Shown here piece after piece: positions 8,885 through 12,579 of a stretch of 27,953 nucleotides of DNA. The translations under genes were made by a program, and so were the position numbers. Source of the DNA: a virus; the IMG/VR virus record IMGVR_UViG_3300020180_000102, positions 1 to 27,953 of that record, one strand, 5' to 3'. Numbering within the stretch: the stretch's first letter is position 1; each line of letters starts with the position of its first letter. The notes beneath the pieces were generated by a model. The model searched no databases, was not told the origin of the DNA, and was given only the letters and a program-made list of their open reading frames with translations.

Positions 8885-9882
8885 GCCGCCGCGATTGGAA
8901 TATTTCCCCGAATCAAAAAGGCTACAAGCGACTGGGTGATGCGATCCCGGTGATCCAGGTGACCAATGGCGCGAACGCCGAGTGCAAACACTGCGCTGGT
9001 ACCGGTTACGAGGTGATCGTGACGTACAAGGGTAAGGGGATGCACGGCGTAATCCGTGAAATTACCGATCTTGCGCCGTGTCGATGCCGGGCGAGCGGTG
9101 CGTGCGGTGCGTGCAGCGGACGCGGCTACGTGTTGAGCGATAGCACGCCGCGCGATTGCCCTTTGAACTGCCTCGCGTCGCAAAAGCTGAAAGCGAAGCG
9201 GGAGTCGGGTGTGATCAAGTACTCGCAACTGCCACCGGAATATCAACCGCTGACGTTTGTGACGTTCGACCGCATGTCCATTGAGTATCAAAACGGAAAG
9301 TATCCGGCACGCGTTGCTGCCGAACAGTTTGTTGAGGCAATAGATCAGGGCGGGTATGTCAACCGCGCAGCGGTCGCCGCGCTGTTCGGGCGCACGGCAG
9401 ATGACGATTGGCGTAATTGGCTGGTGTTTTATGGCGAGCATGGACGCGGCAAGACGGGGCTTGCGGCTGCGATTGTGAACGCGCTGGCTACAAACGGTAA
9501 GGCGTGTTTGTACATCCGACTGGGAGATTTTATCGAAGCGGTGCAAAAACGCTACAGCAAGGATCGGCGCGACGGGTTTGATGATGAATTCGGCGCGACG
9601 GCGGAAGATGTTTTAGACGAGGTAAAACGCGCGCCGATCCTCGTGTGCGACGAATTCGACGTGTCAGACGTGACGACGAATAAGCGGAGCATCGTCGAGA
9701 AGCTGGTGCGCTATCGACACGGACAAAACCTGCCGACTGTGATCACGACCAATCTTGACGCCGACTCGTTCGAGCGGCGATGGGAGCGGACGATCAGTAC
9801 GGTGGTACGGGATCGAGCGCATTGGCTGCCAATGCGCGGGTTGAGTTTGCGCCGCGACGTAAATGAATTCGAGTGGGAGTGA
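8881..9882 (+). CDS. DnaC-like replicative helicase loader with zinc-finger N-terminus, 333 aa
   Basis: The ATG overlaps the initiator stop (ATGA). The N-terminal part has Cys pairs in DnaJ-type CxxCxGxG form: C35-x2-C38 with GTGYE, C67/C69, and C75-x2-C78 with GRGYV, likely one or two zinc sites. The C-terminal AAA+ ATPase has Walker A GEHGRGKTG (185-193, Lys191) and Walker B ILVCDEFD (Asp257-Glu258), then SVVRDRAHWLPMRG near the end, as in DnaC/IstB-like loaders. It should load the host replicative DnaB helicase at the origin using ATP; no phage helicase is encoded here. Together with the preceding initiator it forms an O/P-like pair. Confidence 0.88.
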   Translation: MSRRDWNISPNQKGYKRLGDAIPVIQVTNGANAECKHCAGTGYEVIVTYKGKGMHGVIREITDLAPCRCRASGACGACSGRGYVLSDSTPRDCPLNCLASQKLKAKRESGVIKYSQLPPEYQPLTFVTFDRMSIEYQNGKYPARVAAEQFVEAIDQGGYVNRAAVAALFGRTADDDWRNWLVFYGEHGRGKTGLAAAIVNALATNGKACLYIRLGDFIEAVQKRYSKDRRDGFDDEFGATAEDVLDEVKRAPILVCDEFDVSDVTTNKRSIVEKLVRYRHGQNLPTVITTNLDADSFERRWERTISTVVRDRAHWLPMRGLSLRRDVNEFEWE

Positions 9883-11027
9883 TGATGCCAAACGAGAAGC
9901 GAGGGTTTTGGAGTCGGATCGGAAGTTTGATCGCCGCGTTCCCTGAATACTATCCCAAACTGCTGGATGGTGTGATCGGGTTCGGTGATGTACTGCAAGC
10001 GCTGGCGCAAACGCTGATCATCGCGCTCGGTCTGCCGCTGATCCTGATACTGATGTTGATCGTTGAGCATCACGGTATTTATGACGGACTGCTGTGGTTT
10101 CTTGCCGACGAAAACATGGCGTCGCTGGGCGCGCTGGCGTTCGTCCTGTTCAATCTGGGCATCGAGTTTCAGATCGCATACATCGAGGATGCGGCGAAAT
10201 ACAAGCGCCCAGAATCGTATGTGTGGTCGGCGGCGCTGGCGATCACGGATTTCAGGTATCGCATTGGCGCAAGCAAAAAAGTGAAAAAAGGCACGGCGAT
10301 TGAAAAATGGCAGCCGCGCAAGCATTCCCCTGCGCATCGATTTCACGGGCTGCGGGGATGGGTAACGGTGGCGATCTTCGTACTGGCGTTATCTGGACGG
10401 ATGCACGATGCGATTTTGAAGGTGAGTGTCATCAACCCTGACGACCCGCAATCAACGACGATCCCGCTGGCGCAAGGTATTTCCAATTTGTTGACACAGA
10501 GCAGTTTGGCGGACGCGGTGGCGTGGGGCGCGGGCACGCTGTTTACGATGGTGGCGCTGGTGGGCGTGCAGGGGTTGACGTACTACATCGCCGTGCGTGT
10601 GATTGACATCCGCGAGGATATGAAAAAACGACAGGCGAATCAGAAAGCGCAGGTCACGAGGGCGCGCAATCGGGTGTCACTGCCCGCCTCGGGGCGAGTG
10701 GGTATCAGTGCGCCGCATGTGGAGCAGCGGGCGGCTTACGCCATCGTGAAGGTGATCGACAACACGCTCAAGCCGATCAAGCTGACGGGTGGACGGTATC
10801 AATGCCCGGCGTGCGACAAAGAAATGACGCGGCAGGGGTGGGGTAAACCGCATGGTTGCCGCGTGATCGATCAGGTTGCCGGTCGGGTTGACGATGGTGG
10901 ACGCGGGGTTGCGCCAGTTGACGAACGGTTGCGTGTCAACTGGTCAACCAATAGTCAACCACCGGAAACCGATGTCTACCTGACGACAACCGATGAAGAA
11001 ACTAAACCATCGGAGGCGCGGAAATGA
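9882..11027 (+). CDS. Predicted multi-pass membrane protein with cytoplasmic Cys-rich tail, 381 aa
   Basis: Start is ATG 9882 or 9885, overlapping the previous TGA; GGGAG lies just upstream. Four hydrophobic segments are visible: about 40-63 (LAQTLIIALGLPLILILMLIV), 78-100 (ASLGALAFVLFNLGIEFQIAY), 160-173 (WVTVAIFVLALSG, short) and 212-238 (AVAWGAGTLFTMVALVGVQG). The C-terminal 130 residues are soluble and basic (KKRQANQKAQVTRARNRV) with a small putative zinc knuckle (CPACDKEM...HGC), then an acidic Thr-rich tail. I do not recognise the family. Position between the helicase loader and cytosine methyltransferase suggests a role in anchoring DNA or replication at the membrane, which is inference only. 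Confidence 0.7.
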   Translation: MMPNEKRGFWSRIGSLIAAFPEYYPKLLDGVIGFGDVLQALAQTLIIALGLPLILILMLIVEHHGIYDGLLWFLADENMASLGALAFVLFNLGIEFQIAYIEDAAKYKRPESYVWSAALAITDFRYRIGASKKVKKGTAIEKWQPRKHSPAHRFHGLRGWVTVAIFVLALSGRMHDAILKVSVINPDDPQSTTIPLAQGISNLLTQSSLADAVAWGAGTLFTMVALVGVQGLTYYIAVRVIDIREDMKKRQANQKAQVTRARNRVSLPASGRVGISAPHVEQRAAYAIVKVIDNTLKPIKLTGGRYQCPACDKEMTRQGWGKPHGCRVIDQVAGRVDDGGRGVAPVDERLRVNWSTNSQPPETDVYLTTTDEETKPSEARK

Positions 11028-12031
11028 ACGTTGTGTCTGTCTTTTCGGGTATCGAGGGGATTGGGTTAGCACTGGAACGCGCGGGCGCGACTATCGTTGC
11101 GCAAGTTGAAAAGAACCGTTTTCGACGCACCGTGCTTGAGCATCACTATCCGCACGTGTTGCGGTTAACGGACGCATATGACGCAGGAAAACAAACCCTT
11201 CCAGAAGCCGATCTTGTTTGCGGCGGAAGTCCTTGTCAAGACCTCTCAACTGCCGGAAAGCGCGCAGGCTTGGCTGGAGAGCAATCTCGTCTCTGGTATG
11301 AGTTCCATCGCATCGTTATGGAGCTTAAACCCCGATGGATTTTATTTGAGAACGTCCCCGGCTTACTCAGCTCCAATGACCGGAAAGACTTTGCAATCGT
11401 TCTTGCAGGACTTACCGGAGTCGTACCAGGTATACCTGCAAAAGGATGGCGAAACGCCGGATTTGCGCGTGGGCGATCCGGCTTCTACAGCGTGGCTTGG
11501 CGGAGTTTGGACGCTCAATATTTCGACGTCCCACAGCGCCGCGCGCGTGTCTTCGTTGTTGGCTATCTTGGAGACGGACGTGCTGCCGAAGTACTTTTTG
11601 AGCGCGAAAGCGGCAAGGGGCATATTGCTCCGCGCCAAAAAACGCGGGAAAACACTGCCTCCCCCCTTAGAGCAGTCCCTCCAAGCCGTCGTGATGGCGG
11701 CAGTTCTCCAGCACCGGGCGAATTCGTTGTACACGCCCCCCTTGTCGCGGGAACGCTGGCAGGCAGCGGCGCTGGAACAATGCGTCCTGCGGGTCAGGCG
11801 AACGAAACCGACATGCTGATCGCCGTGAATCAATCGTATGGCGGCTGGTCAATTACAGAGTTTGGCGTGCGCCGTTTCACGCCGCTTGAATGTGAGCGAC
11901 TGCAAGGTTTCCCCGACAACTGGACGAATGTAGGCATAAGTGACAGCGCGCGCTACAGAGCGTTGGGCGACTCGGTTGCCGTGCCGTGTGTGCAGTGGAT
12001 AGCCGAGCGGATCATGGCGGTGACGCCGTGA
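11024..12031 (+). CDS. dcm: DNA (cytosine-5)-methyltransferase, 335 aa
   Basis: The ATG overlaps the previous stop (ATGA). C5-methyltransferase motifs appear in order: motif I VFSGIEGIGLALE (about 5-17), motif IV GGSPCQDLS with catalytic Cys71, motif VI ENV (109-111), motif VIII QRRARVF (171-177), motif IX RFTPLECERLQGFP and motif X GDSV (315-318, usually GNSV). It transfers a methyl group from S-adenosylmethionine to carbon 5 of cytosine; target sequence unknown. The stretch between motifs VIII and IX, the target-recognition region, is short and coincides with a second long reading frame (11178-11819). Phages carry such enzymes to avoid host restriction. Operon partners are the membrane protein and the duplicated-domain protein, joined by overlaps. 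The gene symbol denotes the enzyme class. Confidence 0.92.
   Translation: MNVVSVFSGIEGIGLALERAGATIVAQVEKNRFRRTVLEHHYPHVLRLTDAYDAGKQTLPEADLVCGGSPCQDLSTAGKRAGLAGEQSRLWYEFHRIVMELKPRWILFENVPGLLSSNDRKDFAIVLAGLTGVVPGIPAKGWRNAGFARGRSGFYSVAWRSLDAQYFDVPQRRARVFVVGYLGDGRAAEVLFERESGKGHIAPRQKTRENTASPLRAVPPSRRDGGSSPAPGEFVVHAPLVAGTLAGSGAGTMRPAGQANETDMLIAVNQSYGGWSITEFGVRRFTPLECERLQGFPDNWTNVGISDSARYRALGDSVAVPCVQWIAERIMAVTP
11178..11819 (+). CDS. Nested ORF in +1 frame of the cytosine methyltransferase, 213 aa, possible overlapping gene
   Basis: Open for 213 codons entirely inside the methyltransferase gene, in the +1 frame. The product (MTQENKPFQKPILFAAEVLV...) carries KTSQLPESAQAWLESNLVSG, a WTLN-containing centre, and LPKYFLSAKAARGILLRAKK followed by RGKTLP. 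From memory, hypothetical phage proteins with a motif like YFLSxKAxxGILRRAxxRGKxLP are annotated widely beside or across such methyltransferases. Here the motif is exactly the shifted-frame reading of the methyltransferase segment VLFERESGKGHIAP. No clear Shine-Dalgarno precedes the ATG. It could be a true overlapping gene or a by-product of conserved methyltransferase codons. Confidence 0.4.
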   Translation: MTQENKPFQKPILFAAEVLVKTSQLPESAQAWLESNLVSGMSSIASLWSLNPDGFYLRTSPAYSAPMTGKTLQSFLQDLPESYQVYLQKDGETPDLRVGDPASTAWLGGVWTLNISTSHSAARVSSLLAILETDVLPKYFLSAKAARGILLRAKKRGKTLPPPLEQSLQAVVMAAVLQHRANSLYTPPLSRERWQAAALEQCVLRVRRTKPTC

Positions 12032-12579
12032 AATCATGTGTGAAATGCGACGAGCCAAGAATGATCAACGCGGCAGGCAAATTGATGACGCTGTGTGTTG
12101 AGCATCAGATCGCGTATTGGCGTGCGCGCAAACCGAAAGGCGAGAACGCGCTGCCGATGCGTGAGAAACTGAAGCGAGCGCCATCCCCGCAGCACCAGGC
12201 GTTTGTGTTGATTGACAGCGAGGCGGGTGAAATATGGCGCGTGACAGCCGTCCGCGAACACATCGAACGCGATGCTGAAAAGCTCAATCAGCATATACTG
12301 CCGATCCTCAAACGAGGTGGCGCGCGGATCGTAACGATCAAGGAGCGGGCGCGCAAACCGAAAGGTGAGAACGCGCTGCCGATGCGTGAGGAACTGAAGC
12401 GAGCGCCATCACCGAAGCACCAGGAGTTTGTGTTGATTGACAGCGAGGCGGGTGAAATATGGCGCGTGACAGCCGTCTGCGAACACATCGAACGCGATGC
12501 TGAAAAGCTCAATCAGTATATGCTGCCGATCCTCAAACGGGGTGGCGCGCGGATCGTAACGATCAAGGAGCGGGCGTGA
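12028..12579 (+). CDS. Hypothetical protein with zinc-knuckle N-terminus and duplicated domain, 183 aa
   Basis: The start is the GTG at 12028, overlapping the methyltransferase stop (GTGA). An in-frame ATG further up lies within the methyltransferase gene. The N-terminus has Cys4-x2-Cys7 and Cys23-x2-His26, a possible zinc-binding knuckle. The rest is two copies of a 75-residue unit (KPKGENALPMREKLKRAPSP... FVLIDSEAGEIWRVTAV...), differing at only a few residues. The unit has a basic N-terminal part, a strand-rich centre and a helix with Leu/Ile. The family is not recognised. The high identity between copies shows a recent duplication. The next gene begins at the stop. Confidence 0.7.
   Translation: MKSCVKCDEPRMINAAGKLMTLCVEHQIAYWRARKPKGENALPMREKLKRAPSPQHQAFVLIDSEAGEIWRVTAVREHIERDAEKLNQHILPILKRGGARIVTIKERARKPKGENALPMREELKRAPSPKHQEFVLIDSEAGEIWRVTAVCEHIERDAEKLNQYMLPILKRGGARIVTIKERA
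12122..12571 (+). repeat. Tandem duplication, 225-bp period
   Basis: The unit beginning near 12122 recurs near 12347 with about ten differences over 225 bp. The period is 75 codons, so both copies stay in frame. Several differences alter amino acids (Lys/Glu, Gln/Lys, Ala/Glu, Arg/Cys, His/Tyr), showing some divergence since duplication. Confidence 0.95.

Follow-up and report, generated by a model that had tools for sequence, protein, structure and literature searches.

A reading frame nested in phage cytosine methyltransferase genes probably encodes an accessory β-like subunit

The gene for the β chain of the C5-cytosine methyltransferase M.EcoHK31I lies inside the gene for its α chain, in another reading frame. 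In this two-polypeptide enzyme, the large chain carries motifs I-VIII and X and the small chain carries motif IX; M.AquI is divided differently, with motifs I-VIII on its α chain and part of the variable region and motifs IX-X on its β chain (PMC3404938). We describe here a large overlap in the gene of a phage C5-cytosine methyltransferase (Dcm) and compare it with these enzymes; a literature search in an open library found no description of this overlap.

The window, by which we mean the whole stretch of DNA that was analyzed, is a 27,953-base virus record from IMG/VR. Its genes are those of a tailed phage, with replication genes (O-like and a DnaC-like loader) as well as portal and head genes. 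The outer methyltransferase gene (11024..12031, + strand, as are all features of this locus given below) encodes a 335-residue α chain which matches PF00145 (E=6.8e-54) and PHROG 116 (E=2.4e-79). Motifs I, IV (PCQ, 11231..11239), VI (ENV), VIII, IX and X are all present in its translation and in order, and this motif set together with the PF00145 match places the outer frame among the C5-cytosine DNA methyltransferases. Motif IX (RRFTPLECERLQGFPDNWT) and motif X (YRALGDSVAVPC) are read in the main frame at 11870..11989, downstream of the nested gene.

Three other ORFs of the window were noted. Directly upstream of Dcm, a 384-residue ORF (9873-11027) contains hydrophobic stretches and a CxxC-containing, zinc-finger-like end, and has no PHROG match. 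The ORF at 11986-12579 is made up of nearly identical tandem copies, two in number, of about 75 codons (KPKGENALPMRE...VTIKERA). The start of the ORF at 14297-15622 matches ParB-like profiles and most of its length matches the DNA methyltransferase PHROG 498, and we read it as a ParB-methyltransferase fusion.

The nested gene, of what we call type A, occupies phase +1 within the Dcm ORF and encodes a β-like product of 213 residues from an ATG start (11178..11819). It begins about 17 codons before motif IV, continues past motif VIII and stops before motifs IX and X. A preliminary description of this DNA had reported a second open frame running through motifs IV-VIII and beyond, with an RGKTLP motif, and the sequence bears this out: the product contains YFLSAKAARGILLRA (11592-11636) and RGKTLP, the shifted readings of Dcm VLFERESGKGHIAP and of the residues that follow it. 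Both belong to a conserved C-terminal domain (WTLNxSE...SLSxxLE...KYFLSxKAxxGILxRAxKRGKxLPxxL, 11481..11702), delineated by alignments and AlphaFold2. The length of the frame in the window is by itself only suggestive, because an open +1 run of this size (216 codons) also appears in 0.5% of 5000 shuffles of the window Dcm in which the protein and codon usage were kept and synonymous codons permuted (p=0.0052). The comparative evidence for the nested frame goes far beyond this.

Homologs of the nested product are numerous. Searches with tblastn returned 117 phage records for the window product and, with relatives as queries, 136 phage and 573 plasmid records; dmt of phage P1 is among them and holds a copy of the nested gene at 2201-2686 of L333 (annotations of P1 and other genomes were used as deposited). 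Scans with the C-terminal alignment found at least 596 places in IMG/VR and at least 280 in GTDB genomes. The homologs range over phages, prophages, plasmids and integrative elements of several phyla, and in nearly all of the 160 loci retained from the motif scans the nested frame is open inside the Dcm ORF, in the same phase.

A first conservation scan was set aside as biased, because its loci had been picked by the nested motif, and the test was repeated on loci retrieved by Dcm only, once with the first 109 Dcm residues and once with the whole Dcm (142 Dcm ORFs). When all three forward frames of these ORFs were scored with an HMM for the nested C-terminal domain, the score exceeded 30 bits in frame +1 of 91 of the 142 and in frames 0 and +2 of none, with no intermediate values, though the loci are related and such counts do not represent independent events. 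A Dcm codon alignment of 76 of the Dcm-selected loci gave a fourfold third-base identity of 0.30 upstream of the overlap, 0.51 from motif VI to motif VIII, 0.70 (0.66-0.73) in the C-terminal domain and 0.29 downstream of it; synonymous constraint is strongest at Dcm codons 183-218 (11570..11677). Among the loci that the Dcm N-terminus by itself retrieved, the domain reached 0.68 (0.60-0.76), versus 0.29-0.31 elsewhere. Within the domain, position 1 of the Dcm codon, which is the nested wobble position, is the most variable (0.63) and position 3, the nested second position, is the least (0.39). Such a pattern marks a protein-coding nested frame, over which the Dcm protein can vary freely. At codons 183-218 the nested frame dominates, and the Dcm sequence resembles a free linker from motif VIII to the target recognition region. 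The constrained stretch falls in this interval, the one in which fragments of M.SssI best tolerate a split (PMC3404938).

Purifying selection limited to the overlap, combined with nested codon periodicity, is what marks a functional same-strand overlapping gene, and we regard the nested frame as almost certainly a translated, selected gene and not an artefact. The possibility that both frames are selected is supported: the nested frame is unbroken by stops in relatives, including loci selected by Dcm only, synonymous change falls strongly over the overlap and the codon phase switches to the nested frame. Selection on the nested product is strong mainly over its C-terminal ~70 residues and weaker over its middle. 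The KTS at its N-terminus was dropped as independent evidence, because it is the +1 reading of motif IV.

Most Dcm genes without the KYFLS domain contain a second family of +1 ORFs, type B (L178, L182, L183, L190, L207 and L230 among them). The type B product resembles type A in its N-terminal part (QLTLF, SPAKTS, FSETWPRSGM) and continues with WPTP repeats and LNPxWVEWLMGFPxGWT. The outer frame of type B loci reads RVAHGxPxRVDRLxxLGNAVVPQ where canonical motif IX would stand. Open +1 runs exceed the shuffle expectation in both families (medians 160 vs 78 in type A, and 224 vs 108 in type B, n=49), and frame +2 shows no excess over synonymous shuffles in the relatives. PHROG 16143 matches type A nested products (L001, E=3.6e-14; L005, E=1.5e-7), the window only weakly (E=0.0099), and PHROG 1008 matches the type B product of L178 (E=5e-29). 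The records of mycobacteriophages XFactor (L337) and DosHalletts (L338) annotate no more than a hypothetical protein in the type B nested frame, although the Dcm frame is open as well.

Standalone copies were looked for among type B matches from genomes of Enterobacteriaceae and Pseudomonas; the readable ones again lay inside Dcm, and many weak ones were unclassifiable by the pattern used. Mycobacteriophage Thibault gp104, at first sight standalone, is actually a Dcm interrupted by an HNH-bearing insertion. An interruption of this kind, with the HNH endonuclease in a third frame, was observed in the Omega-like mycobacteriophages Thibault (L004, 350-2300), Constella (L011) and Schatzie (L010), and one submitter noted that the intron boundaries could not be determined.

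In some relatives the nested frame contains Dcm motifs. In L177 and L237 it holds motif IX (PF00145 positions 253-298, near the cutoff) and in L228 and L239 motif IX was identified there by sequence, motif X being in the outer frame at all four loci. In L096 and L153/L157, motifs IX and X are both in the nested frame (47.1 and 40.9 bits). Type B has a motif-IX-like segment in the nested frame by eye, with no Pfam hit, and the nested product of the window has no PF00145 match. Loci with merged frames were retained only for L096, L153/L157 and the L339 clade, because of their long intact β frames and conserved motifs IX-X; others, such as L094, L105, L114, L125, L140, L165 and L172, are merged at odd places, which we read as indels, decay or assembly errors, and were excluded.

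Homologs not overlapped by a methyltransferase, which the preliminary description had named as something to look for, do exist. In L339/L341/L346, L342 and L348 the overlap is gone and the nested domain is in a separate ORF directly behind the α ORF. In L339 and its relatives the α ORF terminates downstream of motif VIII and ~300 nt upstream of the KYFLS motif; the β ORF consists of an N-terminal clamp-like motif, the nested domain, a variable region and motifs IX-X. The β start is a GTG after AAGGAGG in L339 and L346, an ATG after GGAGG in L342 (motif QMMLF) and an ATG after AAGGAG in L348 (motif QLTLL). These five split Dcm genes were seen in Clostridia-related mobile elements, with α stop and β start within a few bases of each other. 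Hypothetical proteins with the nested motif had also been described as common near such enzymes; those of the L339-type clade do adjoin the enzyme, and elsewhere, wherever checked, they lie inside the enzyme gene.

The N-terminal part of many nested products resembles a sliding-clamp ligand: QL[SD]LF is a DnaN-clamp-binding pentapeptide. Among 210 non-redundant Dcm genes, with synonymous shuffling as the expectation, Q[LMIV]x[LMI][FLY] occurs near the nested start in frame +1 of 52 loci (2.3 expected), mostly as QLTLF, QLTMF or QLSLF, and in frame +2 of none (0.3 expected). Only roughly one locus in four has the motif. Of the 52, 47 have an ATG no more than 25 codons upstream of it, and a Shine-Dalgarno sequence of at least 4 nt precedes 68% of the nearest ATGs versus 14% of control ATGs in frame +2. 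In the window, alignment with L014 (FRQLTLFAADSPVKTS) and L001 (NQLTLFAGDFHAKTS) identifies QKPILF (11202..11219) as a degenerate version of the relatives' QLTLF; it does not match the pattern above, and might conceivably have a clamp-like role. In the lineages that possess the motif, the nested product may tether the enzyme to the sliding clamp, at slightly below even odds.

AlphaFold2, applied to 78 nested sequences, shows a confident two-helix C-terminal unit, with pLDDT above 90 around residues 140-180, and low confidence over the N-terminal two thirds. Foldseek against the PDB gave no informative match, and a sequence search of the PDB returned no hit.

Selection on the nested protein, its tight linkage to Dcm, the occurrence of motif IX or IX-X in its frame and the de-overlapped homologs with their own starts can all be read from the sequences. 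They point to an internally initiated accessory (β) methyltransferase subunit, a variant of the two-polypeptide enzymes of M.EcoHK31I and M.AquI type, a reading to which we assign a probability of about 0.68. The locus would then be a two-protein gene: the outer frame would give the C5-cytosine methyltransferase, and internal +1 initiation a small β-like protein with a mostly disordered N-terminal part, bearing in many relatives a motif like those that bind the DnaN sliding clamp, and a conserved helical C-terminal domain. The β protein would most likely bind the methyltransferase as a subunit and complete or steer the enzyme. In many relatives it could also tether the enzyme to the host replication clamp, and newly copied phage DNA would then be methylated at the fork.

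That the nested product works together with Dcm as a subunit is likely, because its homologs are nearly all in Dcm genes, its frame carries motif IX or IX-X at some loci and the separate β ORFs of the L339 type join the nested domain to motifs IX-X. The window is of the majority type, in which α has every motif. With motifs IX and X read in the outer frame, its Dcm could work alone, and β is there best regarded as a subunit that assists or steers the enzyme. The same completeness of Dcm, in the window and in most type A loci, is what makes the strongest alternative plausible: the nested protein may be selected as an independent small protein, such as a replication, host-takeover or counter-defence factor, that was overprinted in Dcm and for which the enzyme has no obvious need. 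A clamp-like N-terminus would suit a replication factor too. We nevertheless consider this unlikely, as an independent factor would hardly be expected to have nearly all its homologs in or directly adjoining a Dcm gene, to include, in several lineages, motif IX or IX-X of the enzyme itself, or to remain fused to the C-terminal half of the methyltransferase where the overlap is gone.

A second alternative concerns how the nested frame is reached. Ribosomal frameshifting would join the Dcm N-terminus to a nested tail, and the constraint, weak at the nested N-terminus and rising toward the C-terminus, has the profile of such a tail; the nested start of the window, moreover, has no clear Shine-Dalgarno sequence. 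Internal initiation of the β subunit agrees better with the enrichment of ATG and Shine-Dalgarno sequences in the relatives, with an N-terminal motif that is conserved yet placed differently in different families and with the de-overlapped versions, which have their own start and Shine-Dalgarno sequence. At L177 and L237, with motif IX in frame +1 and motif X in frame 0, frameshifting would need a second shift back. We judge the frameshifting alternative very improbable. That the +1 conservation is a by-product of the conserved Dcm protein or of a DNA or RNA element, as parts such as KTS might suggest, is scarcely credible and already contradicted: conservation of Dcm-synonymous sites is confined to the overlap, variability tracks nested codon positions, the motif persists in ORFs with no overlapping Dcm frame and the nested HMM is silent in the other forward frames.

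The finding is a large same-strand overlapping pair, conserved across several phyla and largely hidden, because gene callers retain one frame per locus. If the nested product is indeed a subunit, many phage Dcm enzymes taken as single proteins would be two-protein enzymes, re-coding the gene for expression constructs would eliminate the partner, and PHROG families that bear the methyltransferase label would in fact be that partner. More tentatively, and with the odds somewhat against it, phage and mobile-element Dcm genes may as a rule be dual-coding, with a +1 β of at least two families that couples methylation to the fork via the host clamp and an overlap that is sometimes resolved to a split. 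The loci also form a series of a rare kind. It leads from complete overlap, by way of a motif IX that has changed frames, to a gene on its own, so that ideas on how overlapping genes evolve can be put to a direct test.

Several described cases resemble this locus in part. In the ShiLan element, a phage methylase gene also encodes an HNH endonuclease in a different frame (PMC11855218); the element shares with our loci a second frame in such a gene, and differs in being a mobile HNH insertion, not a native overlap. PHROG 16143 and PHROG 1008 both bear the label DNA methyltransferase, which hides that these proteins are encoded out of frame with the enzyme, within its gene. In Paenibacillus phage Shelly, a depositor had already annotated gp56 ("g55 internal gene"), a type B internal gene inside Dcm; it has the type B C-terminus, unlike the window, and its record makes no claim of function or selection. 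The layout of M.EcoHK31I (YGGCCR) is resembled by type B and by L177 and L237, a likeness of layout and not a comparison of sequences. At L177 and L237 the large chain lacks motif IX and the small chain supplies it; the outer frame of the window retains motif IX, and its nested product ends in the KYFLS domain without it. M.EcoHK31I also belongs to a restriction-modification system, whereas the loci described here are in phages and mobile elements. The M.AquI arrangement, in which β carries motifs IX-X, is seen in L096, L153, L339, L342 and L348; the window differs from it in having these motifs in an unsplit Dcm, and the β of the AquI-like clade differs in having, in addition, the clamp-like motif and the KYFLS domain at its start.
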